Origin: a virus
Direction: 5' to 3' (one strand)
Length of the DNA stretch: 26,448 nt
IMG/VR virus record: IMGVR_UViG_3300046320_000037
Location: 1 to 26,448 of that record
Numbering within the stretch: position 1 is the first letter of the stretch; the number at the start of each line of letters is the position of its first letter. Shown here in pieces: positions 5,159 to 24,816 of the stretch. The notes beneath the pieces were generated by a model. The model did no database searches and had not been told where the DNA came from. It worked only from the letters and a program-made list of their open reading frames with translations. The translations under genes and the position numbers were made by a program.

Positions 5159-5527
5159 ATGAAAACATTTGTACAACACTTAGAAGAGCAAAAAGTAACT
5201 GGTTCAGAATGGACTTTATTACAAGAATCTTTAACTTCTGAACTTACTCCAGAATTAGAAGAAAAAATAGATAGAGCTATTGATGAATTTATGGCTCAAT
5301 ATACCAATGAAGACGGTATCGTTGAAATCGCAAGATTTAATGAAGACGTTACTAATGAAGGTTTCTTAGGATCTATTTTAGGCGGTTTAACTGGTTTTGC
5401 ATTAGGAACTTCAGTTGGTAAAATAGTTGCTAAAGCTTTAGGTGTACAATCTGGTATTTTATACGATTTACTAACTTCTAGATTAGTTGGAGCCGCAGTT
5501 GGTTCTGCTCTTGGTACTAGATTCTAA
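5159..5527 (+). CDS. Small head-protein-like precursor with glycine-zipper C-terminal half
   Basis: 122 residues. The N-terminus MKTFVQHLEEQ resembles the leaders of T4 internal head proteins (for example IPIII begins MKTYQEF). Residues 62-69 read NEDVTNEG; the VTNE/G at 64-68 matches the [VIL]-x-E-[AG] type site of the T4 prohead protease gp21. After residue 67 the protein changes from acidic and helical to a hydrophobic region full of GxxxG-like spacing (GSILGGLTGFALGTSVG, then LVGAAVGSALG), a glycine zipper with at least two potential membrane segments. Cutting at 67 would release a 55-residue membrane-active peptide. A prohead core protein that is degraded is the alternative. It lies 10 bases after the tail gene. 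Confidence 0.55.
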   Translation: MKTFVQHLEEQKVTGSEWTLLQESLTSELTPELEEKIDRAIDEFMAQYTNEDGIVEIARFNEDVTNEGFLGSILGGLTGFALGTSVGKIVAKALGVQSGILYDLLTSRLVGAAVGSALGTRF

Positions 5528-10856: not shown

Positions 10857-13145
10857 ATGTCAGTACAAAAAATTTCATCATTTAAGTCCTTTACTGAGGT
10901 TAAAAACCAATCAAAGGCAGCTCAACTTCATGAAGAAGGTAAAGCCAAAAGAGCAGAAATAGTATCTAAAATCGGTGCAGCTCTTGAAGAAATGGGTGTT
11001 ACTTCACTACAAGAATTAGATGAAGAAAAAAGAAATGCCTTAGTTGCTAAAATCTTTAATGAAGATGAAGCAGAAGAAATTGAAAAAGATATTGTTAAAT
11101 TAGGTGAACCTAAAAAAGAAGATCCTAAAAAAGGCGAAGAATTAACAAACGAGGCAGTTATCAATGAAGGGACAAGATCTCAAATTGGTAAAATTGACAA
11201 GTCAGGTAAAATTGTATCAACTTATGTACATTATGATGGTTATCCAGAAAATATGGTACCATTATTGAAAAATTACAAAGACACTAAATCAGTAGATCAA
11301 TTATTAAAATTAGGTAAAGCTGGTATTTCATACTTAGATGCTAAAATTGGTGATAAACCAATGGATTTCAGTAATCCAGAAAAAGGCGTTACTTTATTTT
11401 ACGGAAGAGATAGAAATGAAAAAGGTGACATGACTACTAAAGCAGACGTTAAAAACGTAGCTAAGTATTTGAAAGGTGTTGCAAACCAATCAGGCGCAGA
11501 ATATGCTTATTTATACGATGAAAGAGACGGTAAATGGTACATGGCTGACACATACGAAGATAAAGAATTAAAACCAGTTGCAGAATCTTTATTAACTGAA
11601 GGTAATGCTTTTGGAGCTGCAGTTACTAAAGCTAAAGAAGCTGGAGAAAAAGAATTTGAATTTGACGGTAAAACTTACAAAGTTAAAGAAGATAACGCAT
11701 CTGAATTTGACGTAATTGATGATGTATTCGAAGCAAACTATAATGTTTCTAGATCAGCTATAGGTAGAATGGGTGGTTTAGTGCCAATTAAAGAAATGAA
11801 TTCTTTGATAGATTGTTCTAAAGCAGTTATTGAAGATCTATATGAAGAAGGTTTTGAATTAGATGAAATCATCGGTTACATTGCATACAGAATCAATGAT
11901 AAATTTGAAGGCGTGTATGAATCAGCATTAACCGAAGGTTCACACGGAATGGCGACCAAATTACTTCAAGCTATTGTAGATGGAGATTCTTCTAAAGCAG
12001 AAGGTGTTAAAATGTCAAAAGAATTAGCACAACACGCCATAGATTGGATTAAAACTTCTCCATTTGGTAAAAAATACGGAAATTTACCGTTGTATATGTT
12101 AATTAAAGCATCTATTAACTGGGGTATTGAAAGAGGTTTAGATTCAAGCTTAAAAGCTGAATTAAAATCTTTAGTAAATTCTTTAAAAGAATCTACTGAA
12201 TCAATCGAAAGCGATGACGTAAACGAAGCTAGATCAATTAATAAAATCCAGACAGAATGGACTAAAGTTACTAATGCAATGAAAGACACTGCAGCTAGTT
12301 GGAAAGCAGCTGAAGGTGATGCAAAAACTGCATTATTAACAACTTTAAAAGAAATGACAGCAAAAAAGAAAGCTCTAGAAGCTGAATTAGATGCAGTTGT
12401 TTCAGATAAAGACAAAGACTTAGAATTAGCAATGGAATCTTTAGACGTTAATGAAGGTTTTGAAGTTCATTACTCAGATGGTGTAAGAGCATTCAAAAAA
12501 TTCGGTAACCAAAGTCAAGCTATGGCTTTTGCAAAAGACTTAATCAAAAATAAAAAAAGTTTACAATTCGTAGATGTTTTTAATGCAGGGTCAGGATTTC
12601 ACTCAACATCTGATACAAATGCTATCGTAGCATTTTGGGGAGATGGTTCTTACACAGACAACGTTTCTAAGAAAGATGCTAAATTAGCTGCTAAAAAAAT
12701 TCAAGAATCAGTAGAATTTAATGAAGAAGACATCAAGTCTGATGATCAATTTAAAGAATACGCAATGACAGTTTTAAAAGATGCATTCAAAGATGAATTC
12801 GATGAAGCTAAAGCAAACGATGTTATCAAAGGAATTCTTGGTAAAGTTGATGGCGATTACGGCGCAGCTATCGGAATGTTAACAAGTTCTTTAGGAGAAT
12901 CAGTTACAAATGAAGCTACTGTTGAAGTAGATGCTACAGACCCTAAAGATAAAAACTTAGCTAAATTATTAAAGAAACACAATGTTACTTTAGAAGTAAT
13001 TAACAAAAAGGGACCATCGGGTTATCCAGAAGTTAAATTAACTGGAGATACTAAAGATCTTAAAGCAGTTTTAGCAGATGACGAATATGGCTGGGACGAT
13101 GAAGATCTTGCAGATTATATTGAAGAATCAAACACTGAAAACTAA
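10857..13145 (+). CDS. Modular internal head protein precursor (predicted polyprotein)
   Basis: 762 residues, acidic. The N-terminus (MSVQKISSFKSFTEVKNQ) resembles a capsid-targeting leader. The protein divides into modules of about 75-145 residues separated by sites of the prohead-protease type, several preceded by ES: TNE/A at 99, INE/G at 104, LTE/G at 248 and 360, VNE/A at 457, VNE/G at 533, FNE/E at 623, TNE/A at 686. The module at about 105-248 has RSQIG, YVHYDGYPENM and a LKNYKD-LLKLG stretch, a domain I know from stand-alone phage proteins of unknown function. Module 249-360 contains a FEFDGKTYKVKED hairpin and module 534-623 FEVHYSDGVRAF. No catalytic motif is visible. A scaffold (gp22-like) or a bundle of injected proteins are both possible. 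The gene follows UvsW and ends at a strong terminator. Confidence 0.65.
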   Translation: MSVQKISSFKSFTEVKNQSKAAQLHEEGKAKRAEIVSKIGAALEEMGVTSLQELDEEKRNALVAKIFNEDEAEEIEKDIVKLGEPKKEDPKKGEELTNEAVINEGTRSQIGKIDKSGKIVSTYVHYDGYPENMVPLLKNYKDTKSVDQLLKLGKAGISYLDAKIGDKPMDFSNPEKGVTLFYGRDRNEKGDMTTKADVKNVAKYLKGVANQSGAEYAYLYDERDGKWYMADTYEDKELKPVAESLLTEGNAFGAAVTKAKEAGEKEFEFDGKTYKVKEDNASEFDVIDDVFEANYNVSRSAIGRMGGLVPIKEMNSLIDCSKAVIEDLYEEGFELDEIIGYIAYRINDKFEGVYESALTEGSHGMATKLLQAIVDGDSSKAEGVKMSKELAQHAIDWIKTSPFGKKYGNLPLYMLIKASINWGIERGLDSSLKAELKSLVNSLKESTESIESDDVNEARSINKIQTEWTKVTNAMKDTAASWKAAEGDAKTALLTTLKEMTAKKKALEAELDAVVSDKDKDLELAMESLDVNEGFEVHYSDGVRAFKKFGNQSQAMAFAKDLIKNKKSLQFVDVFNAGSGFHSTSDTNAIVAFWGDGSYTDNVSKKDAKLAAKKIQESVEFNEEDIKSDDQFKEYAMTVLKDAFKDEFDEAKANDVIKGILGKVDGDYGAAIGMLTSSLGESVTNEATVEVDATDPKDKNLAKLLKKHNVTLEVINKKGPSGYPEVKLTGDTKDLKAVLADDEYGWDDEDLADYIEESNTEN

Positions 13146-13161
13146 AATATCTATAAAATTA

Positions 13162-13189
13162 AAAAGACCCAATTAATCTTGGGTCTTTT
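13162..13189 (+). terminator. Intrinsic terminator after the long precursor gene
   Basis: An 11-bp perfect stem (AAAAGACCCAA pairing with TTGGGTCTTTT) with a 6-base loop and a T-rich right arm lies 16 bases after the stop at 13145 and just before the next start at 13204. It separates the precursor gene from the ligase-like gene. The A tract on the left arm means it could also act in the other direction. Confidence 0.85.
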
Positions 13190-13203
13190 ATATTTCTCCT
13201 AAT

Positions 13204-14484
13204 ATGAAAACACTTTTAAACTACACAGAGTTCCTTATTGAAAAATGGAATCAACAATATCCAGACATTATCTTAGAAGGTGGAGCAGCAGGACACATGA
13301 TGCATCCATTTGATGATGAAACTCTTACATTTGGTGAAATCAAACACATTATTGATGGTGCTTTAGAAGGTCGTTTAGATTTCGAAGCGGCTCCTACTGA
13401 AAAAACAGACGGACAAAATGTATTTGTTACAGTTAAGAATGGTCAAGCAATGTTCGCTAGAAATAAGGGACAGATGAAACAACCGATAGATCTTAATGGA
13501 ATCACACAGATGTTTCAGGATCATCCATCAACCGGCGTTAGAGATACATTTACGTTCGCTGCACAAGATTTGGCCAGCGCGTTACAATCACTATCTACAA
13601 AGGATCAACAAGAATTTAATGATGGAACCTCATTTATGAATATGGAATTAATTTACTCTGGTAATTCAAATGTAATTGCTTATGGTAAAGATGTTATTCA
13701 ATTTCACGGCATGGTTCATACTGATGGAGAAGGTAATCAAATAGGTTCTGATTCTAAATTAGCTGGTAAAATAGCAAACGCATTAAAATCAGTTAATTCA
13801 CACGTACAAAAAACATTTGAAATCATTCCACCTCAGGAATTACAAATAGGTAAATCAATTGACTTTGAAGAAAAGAAAGGTTATTTCTTAAATAAGGTTA
13901 ATGTTTTACAAAAAAGATATAACTTACAAGATACTGAGCCAGTTTCTAAATATCACGAAATGTGGTGGAAAGAACTTATAGATAAAGACTTTTCAAAATT
14001 AGATGAAATTGACAAAGCAGGTTTAGTACAAAGATGGGCATTCAATGACAAGAAAACTTTAAATATTAGAGATCTTGCAAAGAAAATGGATCCAACAGAA
14101 TATAAAGCATTTCAAAAATTTGACAAAGAAGACTCAGTTAAAAAATTTAAAGAAAACATTTTACCATTTGAAAACTTATTCTTAGAATTAGGTTCAGTTG
14201 TATTAAAGAATGTTTCTAATCTTTTGGTTGCTAATCCAGCTCAAGAAATGCAGAGACTACATACACAAATTAAAACAGAGGCTGATAAAATCAAACAAAA
14301 CGGAGATTTAACTCAATTAGCTAAAGTAGAAAAGGAATTGGCTAGATTAGATTCTATCGGTGGTATTGATTCTATCGTACCTTCAGAAGGCTTAGTTTTT
14401 CAATATAAAGGTAAATTATTTAAGCTTACTGGAACATTTGCTGCCATTAATCAGCTTATGGGTATTATAAAATACGGAAGATAA
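13204..14484 (+). CDS. Ligase-type covalent nucleotidyltransferase with head-targeting leader
   Basis: 426 residues. The first 25 residues (MKTLLNYTEFLIEKW, then IILE/G with the glutamate at 25) match a T4 internal-protein leader and cut site; the mature protein would begin GGAAGHMMHPFDD. The body shows the motifs of ATP-dependent DNA/RNA ligases and capping enzymes in the right order: motif I EKTDGQN with the nucleotide-accepting lysine K67, a basic RNKG at 86-89, motif III MELI at 147-150, motif IV EGLVF at 395-399 and motif V GKLFKL with K404 and K407. The 245 residues between motifs III and IV are more than usual, indicating an inserted helical domain (about 210-370). It probably seals nicks or breaks in DNA or RNA. 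The leader suggests it is packaged and injected. The start has the CTAATATG context. Confidence 0.72.
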   Translation: MKTLLNYTEFLIEKWNQQYPDIILEGGAAGHMMHPFDDETLTFGEIKHIIDGALEGRLDFEAAPTEKTDGQNVFVTVKNGQAMFARNKGQMKQPIDLNGITQMFQDHPSTGVRDTFTFAAQDLASALQSLSTKDQQEFNDGTSFMNMELIYSGNSNVIAYGKDVIQFHGMVHTDGEGNQIGSDSKLAGKIANALKSVNSHVQKTFEIIPPQELQIGKSIDFEEKKGYFLNKVNVLQKRYNLQDTEPVSKYHEMWWKELIDKDFSKLDEIDKAGLVQRWAFNDKKTLNIRDLAKKMDPTEYKAFQKFDKEDSVKKFKENILPFENLFLELGSVVLKNVSNLLVANPAQEMQRLHTQIKTEADKIKQNGDLTQLAKVEKELARLDSIGGIDSIVPSEGLVFQYKGKLFKLTGTFAAINQLMGIIKYGR

Positions 14485-14496
14485 ATAAAATAAATC

Positions 14497-14504
14497 TATA
14501 AATA
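14497..14504 (+). promoter_or_regulatory. Possible T4-type late promoter TATAAATA
   Basis: An exact match to the T4 late promoter octamer lies in the intergenic space, ending 51 bases before the ATG at 14556. In T4 this element is read by the gp55 sigma with the sliding clamp. In such AT-rich DNA chance matches are expected, so this is weak alone, but it is one of two intergenic exact matches noted. Confidence 0.35.
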
Positions 14505-14536
14505 TTTTCATATATCAAATAGATTTAGTATATTTG
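14501..14536 (+). promoter_or_regulatory. Candidate promoter, AATATTTT then TATATTTG
   Basis: AATATTTT at 14501 is followed 28 bases later (start to start) by TATATTTG at 14529-14536, which fits the Bacteroidota -7 consensus TAnnTTTG. The same two boxes occur with the same offset at 22343-22378 before another gene. The A-rich leader and ATG at 14556 follow. It would drive the ligase-NMNAT fusion gene and the genes behind it. Confidence 0.4.
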
Positions 14537-14555
14537 TAAAACAAAAATAAGAAAA

Positions 14556-16436
14556 ATGGCATTACAAAAATTAAGAGATTTTTATCAAGGTACTAATCCC
14601 AATACATTTAACGATATGTTAAAATCAAGAGTTGTTGTAACTGAAAAGATTGCAGGAGCTTCATTTCATGTTAGAAGAGCAATGGAAGGTTTTGAGTATT
14701 TCAAATCTGGAAATAACGAAGCTATGAATATCATAGATAGAACGTTAACTTCAGTATATGAAAATGCCATTAAACACTTTCAAAGTTTAACATTAAACGA
14801 GAAAAATCAAATGCCAAGTGATTGGAAGTTTGGATTTGAATATTTACCAGAATCTAACATGTCTTCTGTTGAATATGATTCAACGCCTTTCAATTTTATG
14901 ATATTAACACACATTCAAGTTTTAGGAACTAATGGCAAAGCTAAAAAAGTTTTAACAGATCCTAAAATTTTAAAAGAATGGGCACAAAAACTACAAGTAC
15001 AAGGACCATCAATCATTTTCGATGGTATGTTAAATGAGGATCAAAAGAGAAATTTAGTGACATTGCTTTCAATGTCAAACGAATCATACGCTAAAAGATT
15101 TGGAAATGAAGCGTTCACCAACCACGTTTACAAATTATTTAATCCAGGAGCTTATAAAACCATTTTAAATGAAGATTTAATCAAACCGATTGATGGTTTA
15201 ATAGTCTCTTTCGTAGATTCAACACAAATTAAAAGTTTTAAATTAGAAGAGTTTAAACCAGCTAATGAAGCTGAAACTTCCAACAGAGAAGCAAGTCACA
15301 TGTATCAAATTACAATGGTTGATTTGTTAGAATTCTTTTCAACAGTAGACCTAGATAGTATTGAGCTTTTAGAAACAGCTTCAGATAAAAGATATATTGA
15401 GTTGATTTCAGCAATGTACAATTCGTATGTTAAAGAAAATGCTACTAAATATGTAGGAGTTGATTTTGGAGCAGCTGATTTTTCTAAATCTGCATTATTC
15501 AATATCAATACAAAATATATTGACAACGAAAAGACATTAGAATATTTAGAAAATCCAGTCTTAGCAGAACTTTATAAAATTATGTTAAGCTCTTTTTCTA
15601 AAAAGAAAATAAAAGAATCTGCTCTGCTAAATTCAAATATACTAGAACAATTAAATCAAATCATTGACGTAATTGAACAAAAAGTATTTGTAGAAAACGC
15701 AGATGAAAATGCAATTCACAACTTCAATAATTTCTTAATGCACAATAAGATTTCTGCTAGTAAAACTAACATGAACGAAGCATTAAAAATTAATTATTCA
15801 GAACAAGGTAAAGAAAAAGTAAATATGTTTGTTGGTAGATTCCAACCATTTACTCTTGGACATGCTAAAGTTTTAGAAACAATCCACAAACAAAATGGTT
15901 ATCCAGTCGTAGTATTTTTGGTTAAAGCTGCAAAGGCTCAAAAAGACGATGCTGTTAAAAGACCGTTTGATACAGAAACACAAATTCAAATGTTTATGCA
16001 AGTGCAAAAACAATATCCTTTCTTAAAAGAGATTTTTGTAATTCCATCAGCTGGTATCGATTTGATGTTTAATGAAATGAGACCTAAATATGAACCAGTT
16101 TTATGGGGAACAGGCACAGATCGTTTCAAAACTTATGGCTATCAAGTAAACAATGACAAATATAGAGATGAACTTGGTGTTTTGCCAGAGTTTGGTTTAT
16201 ATGAGATCAAAAGAGACGATGAAGATATTTCAGCAACTAAAGTTAGAGAAGCTTTATTAGCTAATGACAAAAAGACTTTTGACAAAATGACACCAAAAGC
16301 TTTAGGTCCTTTATTTAATGAACTTAAACAAAAGTTAGAAACTTCATTAAAGATTTCAGAAGCTATTGAAACAGAAGCAAGTACAGATGTATTAACCTTT
16401 GAACAATTTAAATTAAATACTAATATTATTAAATAA
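14556..16436 (+). CDS. Fusion of RNA-ligase-like domain and NMN adenylyltransferase-like domain
   Basis: 626 residues. Residues 1-240 resemble an Rnl2-type RNA ligase: motif I TEKIAGASF with K31 as the likely adenylated lysine, motif III FGFEYL (E95), motif IV DGLIVSF (213-219) and motif V IKSFKL with K226 and K229. A helical region spans about 240-405. Residues 425-600 form a Rossmann nucleotidyltransferase: GRFQPFTLGH at 427-436 (the HxGH-type motif with Thr first) and ISATKVR at 558-564, the signature pair of NMN adenylyltransferases (NadM/NadR). An MNE/A site at 406-409, 18 residues before GRFQPF, could let the prohead protease separate the two enzymes. ISE/A (602) and TE/A (607) sites and a LTFEQF segment lie at the C-terminus. 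No leader is seen at the N-terminus. Other cytidylyltransferase-like substrates cannot be excluded. Confidence 0.75.
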   Translation: MALQKLRDFYQGTNPNTFNDMLKSRVVVTEKIAGASFHVRRAMEGFEYFKSGNNEAMNIIDRTLTSVYENAIKHFQSLTLNEKNQMPSDWKFGFEYLPESNMSSVEYDSTPFNFMILTHIQVLGTNGKAKKVLTDPKILKEWAQKLQVQGPSIIFDGMLNEDQKRNLVTLLSMSNESYAKRFGNEAFTNHVYKLFNPGAYKTILNEDLIKPIDGLIVSFVDSTQIKSFKLEEFKPANEAETSNREASHMYQITMVDLLEFFSTVDLDSIELLETASDKRYIELISAMYNSYVKENATKYVGVDFGAADFSKSALFNINTKYIDNEKTLEYLENPVLAELYKIMLSSFSKKKIKESALLNSNILEQLNQIIDVIEQKVFVENADENAIHNFNNFLMHNKISASKTNMNEALKINYSEQGKEKVNMFVGRFQPFTLGHAKVLETIHKQNGYPVVVFLVKAAKAQKDDAVKRPFDTETQIQMFMQVQKQYPFLKEIFVIPSAGIDLMFNEMRPKYEPVLWGTGTDRFKTYGYQVNNDKYRDELGVLPEFGLYEIKRDDEDISATKVREALLANDKKTFDKMTPKALGPLFNELKQKLETSLKISEAIETEASTDVLTFEQFKLNTNIIK

Positions 16437-16440
16437 TATA

Positions 16441-17895
16441 ATGGCAATAACACCCGGAGATATTAGAGCAAGATTTCAAGCTGAATTAAATAAACAAAAC
16501 GGAGCAATAAACGAATCCAAATCGGGTGATGAAAGCGCTTTGATTAATTATCTAAGACCTATCTTTGATAAACAAGGATACGATGGTAAAATAGAATCAG
16601 GTAGAAGACCTAAACATTTAAGATATATGTTAGGAAAATCTGTTAATGATTCATTAGATCATATCAATTCAATTCTTAAAAAAGAATTGAATAACTATTC
16701 AATAGATGCAATTTCACCTAAAGATTATAAAGCAGGATCATATTCAGGTACATATTATACATATTTAGTTACTTTGCAAGATTCAGTTACCATTAAAGGT
16801 ATTGAATATCACGCTGGTTTACAATTTCATATTGTAAACGATGACGTTCCTAATGGATCATTCACTTCTAAAATTCTAACTCCTTCTGGATTAGGCTTAC
16901 CGCCATCATATTTAAATAAAGGTCAATTAGTTGAATTGACAAAAAAAGCTGTTCGTTCTAAATTTACAGAACAAGATAATATTGTCGGTTTATTAACATC
17001 AATGGTTGATGATGTAGCTGGACATTCATCAAAGCATAGTTTTGAATCTGCAGGCCATGTAGATACTTTTGAAGAAACTATTAAATATTCACCAAATACT
17101 GCAGGATTTGTTGCTAAATTTGATCCATCTGATTTAAACACAGTTGGTAAAGATTTTGGTGAAATTCTTGGAGCTATTTATATGATGAATGCGTGCGGCT
17201 ATGAAAAAGGTGTTGAATTTCCAATTGGAAATAATCCACTTGTAGATTTTTATATAGACGGATACGGAGTATCTTCTAAATATAAATCAGGAGCTGCACC
17301 GACATTGACTGGAATTATTAAAAATGTAGATTCAGATCAATTAACTACACAACCCCAAAGAGAACTTTGGCAAATTTTTAATACAGTTGAGAGTAATAAA
17401 GTATCTGCAGGATATTTAGCAATTTCACAATTACTTAATTTACCAGGTTACCAAAAATTAGTTGAAATAACTAAAGAAAAGAATGTAACTACTGATAGTT
17501 TAAATAAATTTATCACAGATCTTTTAGCTAAAGATCCCGATTCATTCATGCAAGTTTTCGATGGTTTCTATAGTACAATTGGAAGATACCCACAAGGTAA
17601 AACAGTTGAGTGGAATAAAATCAAAAACACTAAACTATATGGCGCAATTATTGGGCCTATGAGTTACCACGTAACAGATTATTTAAATAATAATGGAACA
17701 TATCAAGAATCATTGACAGAATTGTTATCTAAATTAGAAGTAAAACAATTATATTTAGATTTTGCCCCAAAGAAACAAGAGATGATGTTACATCTTAAAT
17801 CTTTTTCTACAACTGGAGTTAAATTTACATTCGAGGCACCAAATCAGTCTGTGTATAGCCCAGATAATGGTAAATTAGGATTTAAAATGAAATAA
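16441..17895 (+). CDS. Unrecognised protein, possibly a PD-(D/E)xK-like nuclease
   Basis: 484 residues, soluble. The first 30 residues include INE/S at 23-26, near the cleavage pattern of the neighbouring genes, but no clear leader. A central segment has FGEILGA (E241), then GNNPLVDFYIDGYGVSSKYKSG with D269 and K280 or K282. This order, Glu helix, Asp strand, then a strand with Ser-Ser-Lys, resembles the PD-(D/E)xK nuclease core with Ser in place of the second acidic residue. I would call that a suggestion. The gene begins four bases after the ligase-NMNAT gene (ATAATATAATG), so the two are probably co-translated and may act together on nucleic acid ends. It could instead be a non-enzymatic cargo protein. 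Confidence 0.5.
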   Translation: MAITPGDIRARFQAELNKQNGAINESKSGDESALINYLRPIFDKQGYDGKIESGRRPKHLRYMLGKSVNDSLDHINSILKKELNNYSIDAISPKDYKAGSYSGTYYTYLVTLQDSVTIKGIEYHAGLQFHIVNDDVPNGSFTSKILTPSGLGLPPSYLNKGQLVELTKKAVRSKFTEQDNIVGLLTSMVDDVAGHSSKHSFESAGHVDTFEETIKYSPNTAGFVAKFDPSDLNTVGKDFGEILGAIYMMNACGYEKGVEFPIGNNPLVDFYIDGYGVSSKYKSGAAPTLTGIIKNVDSDQLTTQPQRELWQIFNTVESNKVSAGYLAISQLLNLPGYQKLVEITKEKNVTTDSLNKFITDLLAKDPDSFMQVFDGFYSTIGRYPQGKTVEWNKIKNTKLYGAIIGPMSYHVTDYLNNNGTYQESLTELLSKLEVKQLYLDFAPKKQEMMLHLKSFSTTGVKFTFEAPNQSVYSPDNGKLGFKMK

Positions 17896-17932
17896 TATAT
17901 TAATATATAGATAAAGAAAAATAATAAAAACT

Positions 17933-19930
17933 ATGAATTTTCAAAACTTTCTTAACGAGAAATATGGCAAAGATGACATCAACACTGCGTATGGCTTCTT
18001 TGGTGCCATGGAAGATGTGCATAATGAAAAAATAGCATACGAAATATTTGATGCAGCTGTTAAAGACTTAATGAAAGAATTTGGTCTTAAAGATGCTGAA
18101 GCAGTAGCTTTATTAAATAGCAAAGCAGGTAGACAAGCAGCTGATGCAATTATTGCAGGAGAATGTGAAGATAATGTTGTTGCAGGAATGTATTGGTACT
18201 TTGGCAAAAACAACAAATCAAAAATTGTTAGTGCTGCTAAAAATGCAATTAGCGAATCTAATGAATTAGATGAAGCTTCTAAATTTGGAGCTCCAGCTGG
18301 TTTAACTAAAGCTCAAACTAAAAAGGTTGCAGAAACTTTAGCTAAAGCAATGTCAAAGGCTGATAATGCTAAAGTAACAGTTAATCTTAGAACATTAGAA
18401 GAAGATTCTTTTGATTTAGATTATGATGGAGAAGAATATGACGGTGGTTCATATAATATTTATGACGATGGTTCTGTTGTCAATCATGCAGTAACACCTA
18501 ATGAAATTTATGGAACTTCTGATTCTTCAGTTGAAGATTTTATTAAAGGTTTAAAAAAGCCTATTAAAGAATCTGAAGAAGTAACAGAATCTAAAATTAC
18601 TTTAAAAAGACAATACACTGAAAATTATCCAGCTAAAACAACTGGAAAACACGCAGCTATTAGAAATAAAATCATCGAAGCTTTAAAAGACGGTGAATTA
18701 ACTAAAGAAGAATTTGACACTTTAGTTTCTGGTTTAACAGAAGATTCTAAAAGATGGTTAAGAAGAAATTCAACATTCTTTAATATTCAGGAAGATAAAG
18801 TTGGTTTAACAAAATCTGGTCAAAAAATTGCAGCAGCTATTTACAGAACAGATAATAAATTAAAAACAAACGAAAATAGCAATACAAACATGGAAACTAA
18901 ATTCATTTATGAATCATTTTCTGAATTCGTTAATTCAATTGATGAATCTTTTGAATTAGTTTCAGAATCATTTAAATCATCTATGTTAGCTGGTTTATTT
19001 ACAAGACAAGGTAAATTTGATGCTACATTAGCAAAAGCATTTTACGGAGCTACTAAATTAAAATTAGATCAAATTGAAGATGAAGATTTAATTACTACAA
19101 CACCTGCATTAGCATACAAAAACAAATTAGAAAGCTCTATTGTTTTTTATATCTCTGATGTAGAAAAACCAAATACGTATGCACCTTCAGATGCATATTA
19201 TACAAGTAAAACAATTCCAGGTGAAGGCTATTTATTGGCTGTAGCTTCAGGAGATAATAAATTCTATGATAATGTTTGGACTGGTGGAAGATGGGACAGA
19301 AATCCAAAAAATAGAACATTAAAACAAGTTGATAACAATCCAAGCGATTCAATTGGTATTAATAAAAAATACAGCGGATGGGATGCAACAGGACTTTACA
19401 ATGTTAAAAGAATTTCAGAAGTAGCTGATAGAGCAATTGTAATCAATACAGCTTTATTGAGACAAAAATATTCAGCAGAAGCTGAAAGAGCAGAAAGAGC
19501 AGCGGCTAAAAAAGGTGCAATTGCATTTAAATCAGATAAAGATTTTAAAGCCGAAAACATGGCAAGATATAATCAAATCATTGCTCAGAAAGCCACTCAA
19601 ATGCCAATGGACAGTTTAGTTTCAAAAGCAATCGAAAGAATGTCTGAACAAATCAAAGACGGTTTAGCTAAACAAACTAAAGGACGTTATGGCGAAATTA
19701 TCGTAGGTACAAATGCAAAAGGCGCTGAAGCTAAATTAGCAGATGTTGCTAATCACATGCAACGCATCTTAGATGATTATTCTGGATATGTTCGTGTTGT
19801 TGCACAACAAGAAGATTCAGTTGCTAAATACGGAGAAGCAGAGTCTTGGTATAAAAGAGAAGTTGAACAAAAAGCAAAAGAACTTAAAGACAGACTTGAT
19901 AAAATAGAATCATTCTCTTATATCTGGTAA
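17933..19930 (+). CDS. Second long internal head protein precursor
   Basis: 665 residues. The N-terminus MNFQNFLNEKYGK looks like a capsid-targeting leader with NE at 8-9. Possible processing sites are LDE/A at 112-115 and VTE/S at 217-220. Region 115-215 has AGLTKAQTKKVAETLAKAM and a Tyr/Asp-rich hairpin stretch; region 220-315 looks helical with LTKEEFDTLVSGLTEDSKRW. At Met320 a new leader-like sequence begins (METKFIYESFSEFVNS), preceded at DNA level by AATACAAAC, nearly the leader used before the gene at 21394; internal initiation or an old gene fusion is possible. The C-terminal 340 residues are a larger domain (GGRWDRNP, then long charged helices after about 500). No catalytic motif is recognised. 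Confidence 0.6.
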   Translation: MNFQNFLNEKYGKDDINTAYGFFGAMEDVHNEKIAYEIFDAAVKDLMKEFGLKDAEAVALLNSKAGRQAADAIIAGECEDNVVAGMYWYFGKNNKSKIVSAAKNAISESNELDEASKFGAPAGLTKAQTKKVAETLAKAMSKADNAKVTVNLRTLEEDSFDLDYDGEEYDGGSYNIYDDGSVVNHAVTPNEIYGTSDSSVEDFIKGLKKPIKESEEVTESKITLKRQYTENYPAKTTGKHAAIRNKIIEALKDGELTKEEFDTLVSGLTEDSKRWLRRNSTFFNIQEDKVGLTKSGQKIAAAIYRTDNKLKTNENSNTNMETKFIYESFSEFVNSIDESFELVSESFKSSMLAGLFTRQGKFDATLAKAFYGATKLKLDQIEDEDLITTTPALAYKNKLESSIVFYISDVEKPNTYAPSDAYYTSKTIPGEGYLLAVASGDNKFYDNVWTGGRWDRNPKNRTLKQVDNNPSDSIGINKKYSGWDATGLYNVKRISEVADRAIVINTALLRQKYSAEAERAERAAAKKGAIAFKSDKDFKAENMARYNQIIAQKATQMPMDSLVSKAIERMSEQIKDGLAKQTKGRYGEIIVGTNAKGAEAKLADVANHMQRILDDYSGYVRVVAQQEDSVAKYGEAESWYKREVEQKAKELKDRLDKIESFSYIW

Positions 19931-19932
19931 TT

Positions 19933-19982
19933 AAAATAAAACAAAATAGATAAATATAAAATAAAACAAAATAGACAAGTAT
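19933..19982 (+). repeat. Two tandem copies of a 25-bp A-rich repeat
   Basis: Copy 1 is 19933-19957 and copy 2 is 19958-19982; both start AAAATAAAACAAAATAGA and differ only at two positions near the end. A third copy, identical to copy 2, is at 20303-20327. Copies 2 and 3 each end three bases before an ATG. The repeat may carry the translation start region or a promoter (it ends GTATAAAATG when joined to the start). Confidence 0.8.
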
Positions 19983-19985
19983 AAA

Positions 19986-20309
19986 ATGAAACACATTAAA
20001 CTATACGAAGAATTTGTTAATGAAGACAAAAGCAAAAAGAATAGATTTTTAGGAGTCTTTGCCCCTGGTAAAGAAGTATTCCAAAGAGTAATAAAAAAAG
20101 TAGATGCATCATCTATTGAGGATTTGATTAAGTACACTGAATCTAACGGAGATGAGGTTGAAAGACATGGTACCTCAGCATGGGCAACAACCAAAGAAAG
20201 TAGAGAAAACGGACAAACAGTATGGAGTTATGATGGAAAAGATTTAATGTTTGTTAATCCAAATACACCATCAATATACGACGAATATATTCGCAAGAAA
20301 ATAAAATAA
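19986..20309 (+). CDS. Small internal-head-protein-like protein with N-terminal leader
   Basis: 107 residues. MKHIKLYEEFVNE/D (glutamate at 13) is a clear relative of the T4 IPI/IPIII leader and of the two genes that follow. The mature part is basic at first (KSKKNRFLG), then has a helix around ASSIEDLIKYTE and short strands (TSAWATTKES, then VWSYDGKDLMFV). I do not recognise it. By analogy with T4 internal proteins it would be packaged and injected; T4 IPI protects incoming DNA from a restriction enzyme, but nothing here shows that activity. The stop codon lies within the third copy of the 25-bp repeat. Confidence 0.65.
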   Translation: MKHIKLYEEFVNEDKSKKNRFLGVFAPGKEVFQRVIKKVDASSIEDLIKYTESNGDEVERHGTSAWATTKESRENGQTVWSYDGKDLMFVNPNTPSIYDEYIRKKIK

Positions 20310-20327
20310 AACAAAATAGACAAGTAT
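20303..20327 (+). repeat. Third copy of the 25-bp A-rich repeat
   Basis: Identical to the copy at 19958-19982. It contains the stop codon of the preceding gene (20307-20309) and ends three bases before the ATG at 20331, so the repeat has been kept or copied together with the leader of the internal-protein genes. Confidence 0.8.
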
Positions 20328-20330
20328 AAA

Positions 20331-20849
20331 ATGAAACATATTCAATTATTCGAACAATTTATTAACGAAGCTAAAGCTGAAGTTAAATTAGGTAGAGTGA
20401 CACCTAAAAACATAGATGAAAAGGCACAACAGGTGTTAGAAGTTTTACAAGGAGCAGTTGGTAAAACTATTAACGGAGAAGAACTTAAAAAAATGGTTGG
20501 TAGAAACTGGGGAGGTCCAGGCGCAAGTAAAGGTCTTAAAAATGCTAAAATTGAAATTATTGCAGTTCACGTAGGACACAATAACAGTTATATTTCTATG
20601 CAGTTTGTATATAAGACTGATTCAGATTTATTCGATAACCACGCCGAAGGTAATCAAAAATTAAAAGATCTTGAAGGTTGGGCCAAAGTAGCAGACGGTA
20701 TGCGTTCTATGAAAGCAATCGACGGTAGTAATAAAGAATACAAAAGCGATGCATCACACCAAGTCAAAGAACTTGTATTTAATAGTTTAAGTCCTAAAAA
20801 CTTAGAAAATGCATTATCTATTTTAAAATTAGGTGATATTATCCTATAA
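20331..20849 (+). CDS. Internal-head-protein-like protein, tandem paralogue A
   Basis: 172 residues. The leader MKHIQLFEQFINE/A (cut after E13) is nearly the T4 IPIII pattern. The mature part begins with LGRVTPKNIDEKAQQVLEVLQGAVG, followed by GEELKKMVGRNWGG, strands IEIIAVHVGHNNSYISMQFVY and a C-terminal helix ending SILKLGDIIL. It is roughly three-quarters identical by eye to the next gene. I do not know the family. A packaged, injected protein is inferred from the leader alone. Confidence 0.7.
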   Translation: MKHIQLFEQFINEAKAEVKLGRVTPKNIDEKAQQVLEVLQGAVGKTINGEELKKMVGRNWGGPGASKGLKNAKIEIIAVHVGHNNSYISMQFVYKTDSDLFDNHAEGNQKLKDLEGWAKVADGMRSMKAIDGSNKEYKSDASHQVKELVFNSLSPKNLENALSILKLGDIIL

Positions 20850-21388
20850 AATAAAACATAAACAACATGAAGCATATTCAATTATTCGAACAATTTATTA
20901 ATGAAGCCAGATCTGAATTTAAAGTAGGCAGATTAACACCTAAAAACATAGATGAAAAAGCACAACAAATATTAGAAGTTTTACAAGGAGCTGTTGGTAA
21001 AACAATTTCTGGAGAAGAACTTAAAAAAATGGTTGGAAGTAACTGGGGTTCAAGCGCAAATAAAGGTCTTAAAAACGCTAAAATTGAAATTATTGGAGTT
21101 CACGTAAATCACAATAACAGCTATATTTCTATACAACTTGTATATACAACAGATTCTGATTTATTCGATACTTGGGCTACCGGTAATCAAAAATTAAAAG
21201 ATCTTAAAGAATGGACTGATCAATTTGATAGAATGATGCATACCAAAGCAATTGATGGTAGCATTGAATACAAAGATGACGCGGCGCACATGGTCAAAGA
21301 TCTTACATTTAATAGTATGAGTCCTAAAAAATTAGAACCTACTTTGTCTATTTTAAAATTAGGTGATATTATCCTATAAAATAAAACA
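20817..21388 (+). repeat. Direct repeat at the 3' ends of the tandem paralogues
   Basis: About 42 bases covering the last codons and the junction (from TCTATTTTAAAATTAGGTG through CCTATAAAATAAAACA) occur identically at 20817-20858 and 21347-21388. Together with near-identical 5' ends this marks a fairly recent tandem duplication of a unit of about 530 bases, the coordinates here spanning both repeat copies. Confidence 0.75.
20867..21379 (+). CDS. Internal-head-protein-like protein, tandem paralogue B
   Basis: 170 residues with the same leader, MKHIQLFEQFINE/A, and the same domain order as the preceding gene. Leader, TPKNIDEKAQQ region and the last nine residues are identical or nearly so, while residues about 105-145 (the DLFDTWATGNQ to HTKAIDG region) have diverged most. 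Relative to paralogue A it lacks two residues near 62 and one near 132. The identical ends and variable middle fit a duplicate that keeps its packaging leader and fold while a surface region changes. Confidence 0.7.
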   Translation: MKHIQLFEQFINEARSEFKVGRLTPKNIDEKAQQILEVLQGAVGKTISGEELKKMVGSNWGSSANKGLKNAKIEIIGVHVNHNNSYISIQLVYTTDSDLFDTWATGNQKLKDLKEWTDQFDRMMHTKAIDGSIEYKDDAAHMVKDLTFNSMSPKKLEPTLSILKLGDIIL

Positions 21389-21393
21389 CAAAC

Positions 21394-21840
21394 ATGCCAG
21401 CAAAATCAAAAGCACAACAAAGATTAATGGGACTAGCATATTCAGTTAAGCAAGGTTACATGAATATTGCTCAAGTTGGTGCAGAGTATAAAGATAAAGT
21501 TAAAGAACTTGTTAATTCAATGAGCATCGAACAACTTAAAGATTATGCTACTACACCGCATGAAGGTTTACCAGATACAGTAGAGTCAGATTCAAATGAA
21601 TCTATGGGTTTTGCAACTGGATCAAATGGACCGCAATCTGTTGGAATGCCAGGTATGGGTATGGGCAAAATAGCTTTACCAGATTTAGGTACAGGCGCTG
21701 TTGGTTCTGGTGATAAACCAGCCGGTAGAGGTGATGCCGATGATGAATACGAAAAAGAAAAGAAGAAGAAAAAGAAACGCGAGAAAAAGCTAGCGAAATC
21801 ATACGAATCTTTTATTTTCGAAAAGTATGGAAAGCTTTAA
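21394..21840 (+). CDS. DUF3008-like protein with basic tail and leader-like C-terminus
   Basis: 148 residues. The N-terminus MPAKSKAQQRLMG followed by a VKELVNSMSIEQLKDYA helix and HEGLP matches the small DUF3008-like proteins found in many bacteria and phages, of unknown function. The middle is Gly/Met/Pro-rich and flexible (85-120). A lysine run (about KKKKKK at 125-133) follows. The last residues SYESFIFEKYGKL resemble the N-terminal leader of the gene at 17933 (NFQNFLNEKYGK), so packaging through a C-terminal signal is conceivable. The gene begins 14 bases after paralogue B and ends at a terminator. Confidence 0.65.
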   Translation: MPAKSKAQQRLMGLAYSVKQGYMNIAQVGAEYKDKVKELVNSMSIEQLKDYATTPHEGLPDTVESDSNESMGFATGSNGPQSVGMPGMGMGKIALPDLGTGAVGSGDKPAGRGDADDEYEKEKKKKKKREKKLAKSYESFIFEKYGKL

Positions 21841-24561: not shown

Positions 24562-24816
24562 ATGAAATATTTATATTTTTCTGCACCTTGGTGTGGCCCA
24601 TGTAGAATGTTAGGACCAATTATGGAAAAGGTTAGTCAAAAATATGCAGTTGAAAAAATCAATGTAGACGAGAACGAAGAGTTATCAACACAATTTGGAA
24701 TTAGAAGTGTGCCTACTGTTATTTTAGTAGATGAATCAAACACAGAATTAGAACGTCTTGTTGGTGTAAAAGCTGAAGGAGACTATTATGATATTTTTGA
24801 AAAGCATAACGCGTAA
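24562..24816 (+). CDS. Thioredoxin
   Basis: 84 residues, about the size of phage T4 NrdC and shorter than host thioredoxin. The active site is WCGPC (W10 to C14) and the cis-proline is P51 in RSVPTVIL. The family reduces disulfides, typically those of ribonucleotide reductase, supplying deoxynucleotides. The stop overlaps the next start in TAATG, coupling it to the gene at 24816. Confidence 0.92.
   Translation: MKYLYFSAPWCGPCRMLGPIMEKVSQKYAVEKINVDENEELSTQFGIRSVPTVILVDESNTELERLVGVKAEGDYYDIFEKHNA

Follow-up and report, generated by a model that had tools for sequence, protein, structure and literature searches.

Putative capsid-targeting leaders on many genes of a T4-like phage clade, predicted anti-defence genes among them

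T-even phages are known to package internal proteins (IPs) that follow a common tag principle, have unrelated mature parts and play an anti-restriction role (PMC3012670, PMC9026906, PMC12373910; the papers cited here and below are drawn on through excerpts). Here we describe a 26,448-base virus fragment (IMG/VR record IMGVR_UViG_3300046320_000037, positions 1 to 26,448; the window), in which seven proteins begin with short leaders of this kind, together with its relatives, in which such leaders occur on many genes. Very probably, the leaders are capsid-targeting sequences (CTSs) of the T4 type: the tagged proteins would be loaded into the prohead, cut by an S77 protease and injected with the DNA, and part of this cargo would serve anti-defence or repair. 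Genes of the window are named by their first position, and all window features given lie on the plus strand.

Like the leaders of this clade, the tags of T4 IPI to IPIII are short and N-terminal (aromatic-x-x-aromatic-aliphatic-x-Glu), sit on unrelated mature parts, occur together with an S77 protease and have direct as well as shifted cut sites. Ten residues of IPIII suffice; by mutation, residues 4 and 7 matter most for targeting and residues 8 and 10 for processing, and the T4 protease gp21 cuts after L/I-x-E (PMC9026906). T4 has three IPs, and "at least 10" internal proteins are given for T4-related phages (PMC12373910), whereas in the clade a looser pattern matches between 12 and 45 genes on each long contig (2 to 8 by chance). 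It also differs from the T4 IPs in an array with leaders on 14 of 15 genes, in a consensus of 13 rather than 10 residues and in its predicted enzymatic and anti-defence cargo. The model for a packaged enzyme is T4 Alt, an ADP-ribosyltransferase both ends of which are processed by gp21 (PMC9026906); the excerpt of that paper mentions no C-terminal targeting signal, whereas the clade's conserved enzyme 14556 has itself a leader-like C-terminal motif. In jumbo phages of the phiKZ/SPN3US type, a prohead protease likewise cleaves behind Glu and proteins of the head are injected, among them the phiKZ protein Tad1, which is active against Thoeris and CBASS; several of their propeptides exceed 100 residues, and the excerpts contain no comparable modular tag (PMC13282480, PMC5694885), whereas the clade is T4-like. 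According to a 2026 review, the Tad1 that phiKZ injects is so far the sole protein with an anti-defence role to have been described from jumbo phages (PMC13282480). The cultured phages P-SSM2, V09 and Mosig have S77 and a few N-termini of the MKSFKQFLEE or FDEYLNE type and differ from the clade by this scarcity. The mechanism is known from T4, and the scale, the anti-defence cargo and a C-terminal tag look new. Literature searches (titles and abstract openings) returned no report of CTS-tagged Acb1 or Tad3, nor of arrays this large; a search on Tad3 with Thoeris and on capsid targeting with anti-defence found no paper, and such work may be in print elsewhere.

Leaders in the window and across the clade

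The window has T4-type genes (tail tube, RuvC-like, gp32-like, primase and UvsW). LR756500.1 (W01), an uncultured phage of 462 kb, has a UvsW 55% identical to that of the window; those of the other 29 records among the matches listed are less than 40% identical. For a 256-kb IMG/VR contig (G001, locus L006), UvsW is reported to be 100% identical; this contig contains the window region in reverse orientation and represents the same species. Judged by UvsW and the head genes, the clade is T4-like. Genome-scale context was taken from G001, G004 (179 kb), G007 (145 kb), G008 (123 kb) and W01, which were read as overlapping pieces with genes from a simple open reading frame (ORF) caller.

An initial annotation of the window had quoted seven T4-like N-termini and proposed an 11-kb cargo locus at 10857-21840. 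All seven N-termini were found in their places, and they do match the spacing of the T4 CTS. The three closest, of the type MKHI(K/Q)L(F/Y)E(E/Q)F(V/I)NE, are MKHIKLYEEFVNE (19986-20024) on a 107-amino-acid protein and MKHIQLFEQFINE, which is found both on the 172-amino-acid protein 20331 (20331-20369) and on its paralog 20867-21379 (20867-20905); as annotated, their Glu is residue 13 and is followed by D, A and A, respectively. A 10-residue leader matrix was built from 14 leaders of the G001 array, among which are neither window genes nor their orthologs. With it, these leaders scored 27.0 (19986), 25.1 (20331) and 25.1 bits (20867), and in the 28 proteins of the window no internal window (238 in all) reached 8 bits. 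Relatives of the 20331 protein other than near-identical copies align over residues 1-85 at most, two of them over residues 1-17 or 1-19 only.

The other four leaders score low (13204, 6.9 bits; 5159, 4.6; 10857, 0.1; 17933, -2.8), and their membership therefore rests on conservation among orthologs. The leader MKTFVQHLEE (5159-5188, then Q) has T4 length and starts a conserved 122-amino-acid protein (5159-5527), whose 78 orthologs have 26 distinct N-termini of the type MKTFLDYxxE, with Glu at position 10 or its equivalent in 22 of the 26 (counted from the list). In 10857, the motif begins at residue 7 of MSVQKISSFKSFTE (10857-10898, then V) and reads MAQVNKISSFKSFTE, MQKLKSFDQFSTE and MYKLKSFDQFSTE in orthologs. 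The leader of 13204 is MKTLLNYTEFLIE (13204-13242, then K); its Glu13 does not vary among the 18 aligned sequences, the window included, and the linker behind it is hypervariable. Finally, the short leader MNFQNFLNE of 17933 (17933-17959, then K) recurs in relatives as MKFQDFLNE, MNFNEFLNE and MSFKDFLNE, on proteins with a different order of modules.

The proposed locus itself had to be given up, since the leader set is genome-wide and the main array lies elsewhere in the genome; moreover, three of the nine block genes (14556, 16441 and 21394), conserved genes among them, have no such N-terminal leader. As the initial annotation had suggested, a leader profile was run on G001, other relatives and cultured T4-like phages, and strong leaders were found at many loci of the clade. 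At least 14 bits within the N-terminal 28 residues were reached by 25 of 318 genes in G001 (14 training, 11 new), 14/155 in G007, 8/201 in G004, 6/127 in G008 and 10/627 in W01, with a chance expectation in each of the five genomes of 0.00 (internal windows) or at most 0.20 (shuffled N-termini). The array in G001 (193,196-200,277) comprises 15 genes, 14 with a leader. A looser leader pattern was matched by 31 genes in G001 (5.9 expected), 16 in G007 (2.2), 12 in G004 (3.3), 12 in G008 (2.1) and 45 in W01 (8.4), and the set of leader genes varies between contigs in the manner of accessory genes. Among cultured phages, 0/249 ORFs of T4, 1/295 of P-SSM2, 1/318 of Vibrio phage V09 (94% of the genome) and 0/180 of Pelagibacter phage Mosig reached 12 bits, and the looser pattern gave 5 (2.2 expected), 11 (3.8), 5 (3.2) and 6 (3.4) genes, respectively; P-SSM2 has one N-terminal cluster of four genes of this leader type. 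A matrix-free count of pairs with alike N-termini and non-homologous bodies, compared with internal positions, gave 199 versus 2 in G001, 51 versus 1 in G007, 332 versus 17 in W01, 19 versus 1 in G004 and 9 versus 0 in G008. Chance or plain paralogy as the origin of the leaders was rejected on the basis of the chance expectations, the unrelated bodies and this pair test.

The leaders of 22 G001 proteins average 59% identity, and a BLASTP match between the bodies (E<0.01) was found in 1 of 231 pairs. From 100 leader rows (69 canonical, 31 noncanonical), 86 proteins were scanned further (the 69 and a strict subset of 17; 14 were left out); their alignment has the consensus MKxIKLFExFxNE and no majority residue afterwards. 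In the canonical leaders, the two aromatics three residues apart are present in 68/69 each and I/L/V in 64/69, Glu being there by selection; the rows were picked by a helix matrix with Glu in place, which makes these positional counts somewhat circular. The resulting pattern, aromatic-x-x-aromatic-aliphatic-x-Glu, has the spacing of the T4 CTS. Glu is followed by A/G/S in 39/69 (background, 22%) and preceded by Asn in 39/69 (background, 5.5%). In a fresh test on the leaders with Glu out of place, a hydrophobic-x-Glu follows within 14 residues in 21/31, compared to 5,589/20,541 internal windows (27%; p=3e-6) and to 20/69 behind canonical sites (p=4e-4), and in 14/17 of the strict subset; some of the 31 rows are likely chance members (e.g., G001_75266, G004_177885 and L009_9545). 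Such a shifted layout is seen in T4 IPI (MKTFKEFTSTTTPVSTITE, then A), the product of which has 95 residues and the mature form 76 (PMC3012670); IPII and IPIII start with MKTYQEFIAE. As read from these alignments, the targeting part and the cutting part of the leader are separable, and the leaders have the features of a T4-type CTS, that is, the aromatic spacing with aliphatic-x-Glu, unrelated bodies and an S77 protease in the relatives' genomes.

Predicted cargo

A Pfam scan of the 86 leader proteins gave, among the matches listed (best 25 of 30 families), Tad3, Acb1, a zeta-like kinase, GNAT, ATP-grasp, leucine-rich repeats, a DUF2201 metallopeptidase and a cytidylyltransferase. Several of these are in the array of G001, that is, in the relative and outside the window: Tad3 at 199513-200277 (PF25185, 68.0 bits, cutoff 27, residues 47-168 of 254) and Acb1 at 198662-199201 (PF23474, 28.3 bits, cutoff 27), together with a kinase/zeta-like protein at 196667-197386 and a GNAT protein at 197942-198292. 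Most of the remaining array members had no match in Pfam. The Acb1 candidate has the HxT motifs H60CT and H135MT, with H44ST and H113IT as counterparts in T4 57B; we take the two HxT motifs to be the catalytic motifs of Acb1. PADLOC hits on the 86 proteins (ten families with one member each, best E 1.6e-4) were not used.

All seven Tad3 loci found in IMG/VR, G001 included, have the leader. In nine records of a phage collection, alignments to Tad3 relatives cover residue 39 onward only, and the leader region lies outside them. Among the best 80 of 83 Acb1 loci from IMG/VR, 20 are leader-bearing (18 of the KLFEEF type and 2 with MKIKNYIQF), the start codon with the top leader score having been chosen per locus, which favours leaders. 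Another leader gene lies within 3 kb of Acb1 at 16/20 of the leader-bearing loci (51/188 neighbour genes) versus 1/60 of the others (1/491), with a Fisher p=3e-12 that is inflated by close relatives among the loci. In addition, Acb1 loci without KLFEEF (L184, L200, L202, L205, L210 and L224) often have another short N-terminal extension, which ends in hydrophobic-x-Glu directly before the domain; most of L232-L253 begin at the domain.

In the window, 13204 (13204-14484) is a predicted RNA-ligase-like nucleotidyltransferase with conserved EKTDG, NMELI, EGIVF and KLTG stretches, which we take to be ligase motifs; further cargo candidates in the window are the neighbouring 14556, with an NMNAT-like domain, and uncharacterised proteins. 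The model of 13204 (predicted local distance difference test [pLDDT], 81.6) has a helix at residues 7-18, followed by a low-confidence stretch at 18-31. Against VIA, the 50 matches listed were all ligases or guanylyltransferases, at Z 5.0-7.8, a Z below 8 being common for models without a clear match; Foldseek with this model gave no match at E<=0.001. Outside the clade, the alignments of relatives (Microcystis phage Mel-JY01 and LR756508.1) begin only at residues 21 and 28.

Prohead protease, head genes and alternative explanations

The initial annotation had held that a genome without a gp21-type protease would refute packaging. This absence was not borne out, as Peptidase_S77 was found in 12/12 long relatives, including the 256-kb G001; the search used also matched T4 and three cultured T4-like phages. 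A search for Peptidase_S77 in the window itself, a 26-kb fragment, gave no match, and the control genomes were silent in that search, too. The S77 frames have 602-694 amino acids in 11 of the 12 long relatives and 240 in the twelfth; the long frames point to a protease fused to a scaffold-like region, and a 519-position protease family of PHROGs spans the greater part of this fusion. A second set comprised 20 contigs that have Acb1 or Tad3; S77 was found in 13 of them.

In G001, the portal, the protease and the major head protein were assigned via PHROGs. The stretch from portal to protease, occupied in T4 by genes 67 and 68 (prohead core), encodes a leader protein in G001 (MKKLIKTFEQFIFE then A, behind five extra residues), G007 (MKIIKTFEQFTSSLQE then D), G008 (MKYLRLFEQFIKE then A) and G004 (MKHLKTFKNYSNLTE then D). 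In the major head protein, H(K/E)LYE(D/N)A near residue 44 is kept in all five genomes and is a plausible cut site. Hydrophobic-x-Glu sites in the scaffold regions were more frequent than in shuffles (32 versus 19.6, 29 versus 15.9, 41 versus 18.6, 25 versus 14.8 and 37 versus 26.9).

We infer a mechanism in which the N-terminal helix, with its two aromatics three apart, would bind the prohead core, so that the tagged protein is built into the prohead. Once the shell is closed, the S77 prohead protease would cut after the Glu of hydrophobic-x-Glu, the freed cargo would be present in the head of the virion, and it would enter the host together with the DNA. The clade would use this tag far more than T4 does, on about 10 to 40 genes of each long contig, and some of the cargo may act in the new host in anti-defence (Acb1-like, Tad3-like) or repair (the RNA-ligase-like enzyme).

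The leader proteins might instead belong to the regular structure or scaffold of a large head, as core proteins that are removed at maturation, and not be injected cargo. One leader protein indeed lies within the prohead gene cluster, and two window proteins are rich in cut sites and mosaic: 10857 (10857-13145, 762 amino acids) has 18 hydrophobic-x-Glu-(A/G/S) sites (shuffles, 7.0 ± 2.5), and 17933 (17933-19930) has 9 (shuffles, 5.2 ± 2.2). Modules of 10857 recur in other leader proteins and in a protease-scaffold fusion, and what forms the last module in 17933 stands alone as a leader protein in L057. Module borders lie near sites for 5/7 clusters of at least three in 10857 (p=0.018) and 3/5 in 17933 (p=0.027), and for 7/15 (p=0.08) and 3/8 (p=0.10) of all clusters; the raw counts are 82/139 and 29/58, with raw p-values inflated by related hits. 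From sequence, both proteins look like cleavable mosaics. However, the array holds Acb1-like, Tad3-like, GNAT and kinase domains, and the set changes from contig to contig, which makes a purely structural role of the leader proteins unlikely.

Since a short helix could bind many partners and packaging is deduced here, the leader might also be an N-terminal signal for another site in the infected cell, such as the membrane, the replication compartment or the degradation machinery. This is distinctly less probable, given that the leader is present on the portal-protease protein, has the spacing of the T4 CTS and ends like the L/I-x-E of gp21, and that a downstream hydrophobic-x-Glu tends to occur when Glu is out of place.

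Codon-position entropy within the leader was 0.84, 0.56 and 0.94 bits for the first, second and third positions and about 1.7 downstream; the constraint is thus greatest at the protein level, and third positions are not free. An origin of the leaders as leftovers of duplicated genes or of recombination where start regions are conserved, with no function in the protein, would fit the lesser variation of third positions than downstream, the paralogy of 20331 and 20867 (their identities to the G001 copy are 96% and 76%) and the identical 24-base stretches upstream of 19986 and 20331, but is highly improbable with bodies unrelated in 230/231 pairs, no conservation of the DNA upstream of G001 leader genes and a Glu13 that is constrained in the 13204 family ahead of a hypervariable linker.

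Several observations weigh against capsid targeting of an anti-defence cargo. The Acb1 score barely exceeds its Pfam cutoff, and a NAMPT-like nicotinamide phosphoribosyltransferase of G001 (215167-216636; L106:5167-6636), an enzyme of a known counter-defence type, has no leader. The three leader-type contigs of the second set include two with S77 and a 110-kb fragment without a match. The portal-protease leader protein matched no family beyond one weak PHROGs match, and no relative of it was found in W01. With the matrix, T4 IPII and IPIII reach just 9.8 bits, at ranks 3-4 among 249 ORFs, and IPI is outside the best eight, so that the likeness to T4 is one of spacing and layout and not of matrix score. 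Just 2/7 window leaders have a small residue behind Glu, and part of the leader likeness could be at the DNA level, given the conservation of third positions. Finally, no consistent late-promoter-like signature was found: TATAAATA lies upstream of 0/22 leader genes versus 6/295 others in G001, and of 3/12 versus 5/143 in G007.

Neighbouring genes, further tags and implications

The three block genes without an N-terminal leader have features of their own. Gene 14556 (14556-16436) encodes a 626-amino-acid protein with a cytidylyltransferase/NMNAT-like domain at residues 424-565 (Pfam PF01467, E=7e-9) and, by eye, a ligase-like motif in its N-terminal part. It ends in the leader-like tag VLTFEQFKLNTNIIK (16389-16433); among 55 orthologs, (L/M)TF-x-(Q/E)-(F/Y) is found a few residues from the end, behind a variable linker, in 22/24 distinct C-termini, and the W01 ortholog is without it. 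In L069 the protein is split, with an N-terminal leader on the NMNAT-like part and the C-terminal motif retained on the other part. This C-terminal motif may serve targeting; a general C-terminal tag was unsupported, as the core motif at C-termini stems chiefly from the 14556 family. NAD salvage by the untagged NAMPT-like enzyme, together with this putatively packaged NMNAT-like enzyme, possibly counters NAD-depleting defences. The DUF3008 protein 21394 (21394-21840, E=3.6e-10) has the leader-like C-terminal motif YESFIFE (21802-21822), and its C-terminus is similar in 2/8 distinct relatives and also in W01.

Gene 16441 (16441-17895) starts with MAITPGDIRARFQAELNKQNGAINE (16441-16515); a similar N-terminus is found on a second unrelated body family, and these two families hint weakly at a second leader type. 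Its conserved E241, D269 and S278-x-K280 resemble what we take to be a PD-(D/E)xK nuclease site, a likeness that remains a lead given the pLDDT of 44 of the AF2 model; a scan for relatives returned close copies only (93-100%). Elsewhere in the window, 24562-24816 encodes an 84-amino-acid thioredoxin-like protein with a CGPC motif (by eye), and in G001 a two-gene cassette is present twice (170500-171200 and 171545-172245), with equal lengths and N-termini.

Unrelated genes share other N-termini in G012, a 322-kb, S77-bearing contig behind L213 (e.g., 313405-317767 and 28023-31747): MKIIITESQYRxL in a 27-gene cluster, perhaps with some chance members, and MNLQENIxRIxxMMGxxxE in six genes, Acb1 among them. 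These are possible dialects of the tag. Tentatively, and with somewhat more doubt than confidence, capsid targeting in this clade might be a general addressing system, in which a portable tag of two parts, a helix that binds the core and a site for the protease, at either end of a protein would load whole anti-defence islands (Acb1, Tad3, GNAT, kinase) and protease-cut polyproteins of swappable modules, other S77 phages using other dialects (MKIIITES..., MNLQENIxRIxxMMGxxxE...).

The data suggest a ready-made arsenal that is injected along with the phage DNA. If capsid targeting is indeed such a general addressing system, injected arsenals would be readable from genome sequence alone. If the leaders do target the capsid, the first-minute weapons of large uncultured phages would be predictable from a 13-residue tag. 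Two known kinds of anti-defence protein, Acb1-like and Tad3-like, would join the packaged class, which would explain a possible disarming of CBASS or Thoeris ahead of any phage gene expression. The list of tagged unknown proteins would then be a list of anti-defence candidates, and the tags could be used for loading foreign proteins into large heads.

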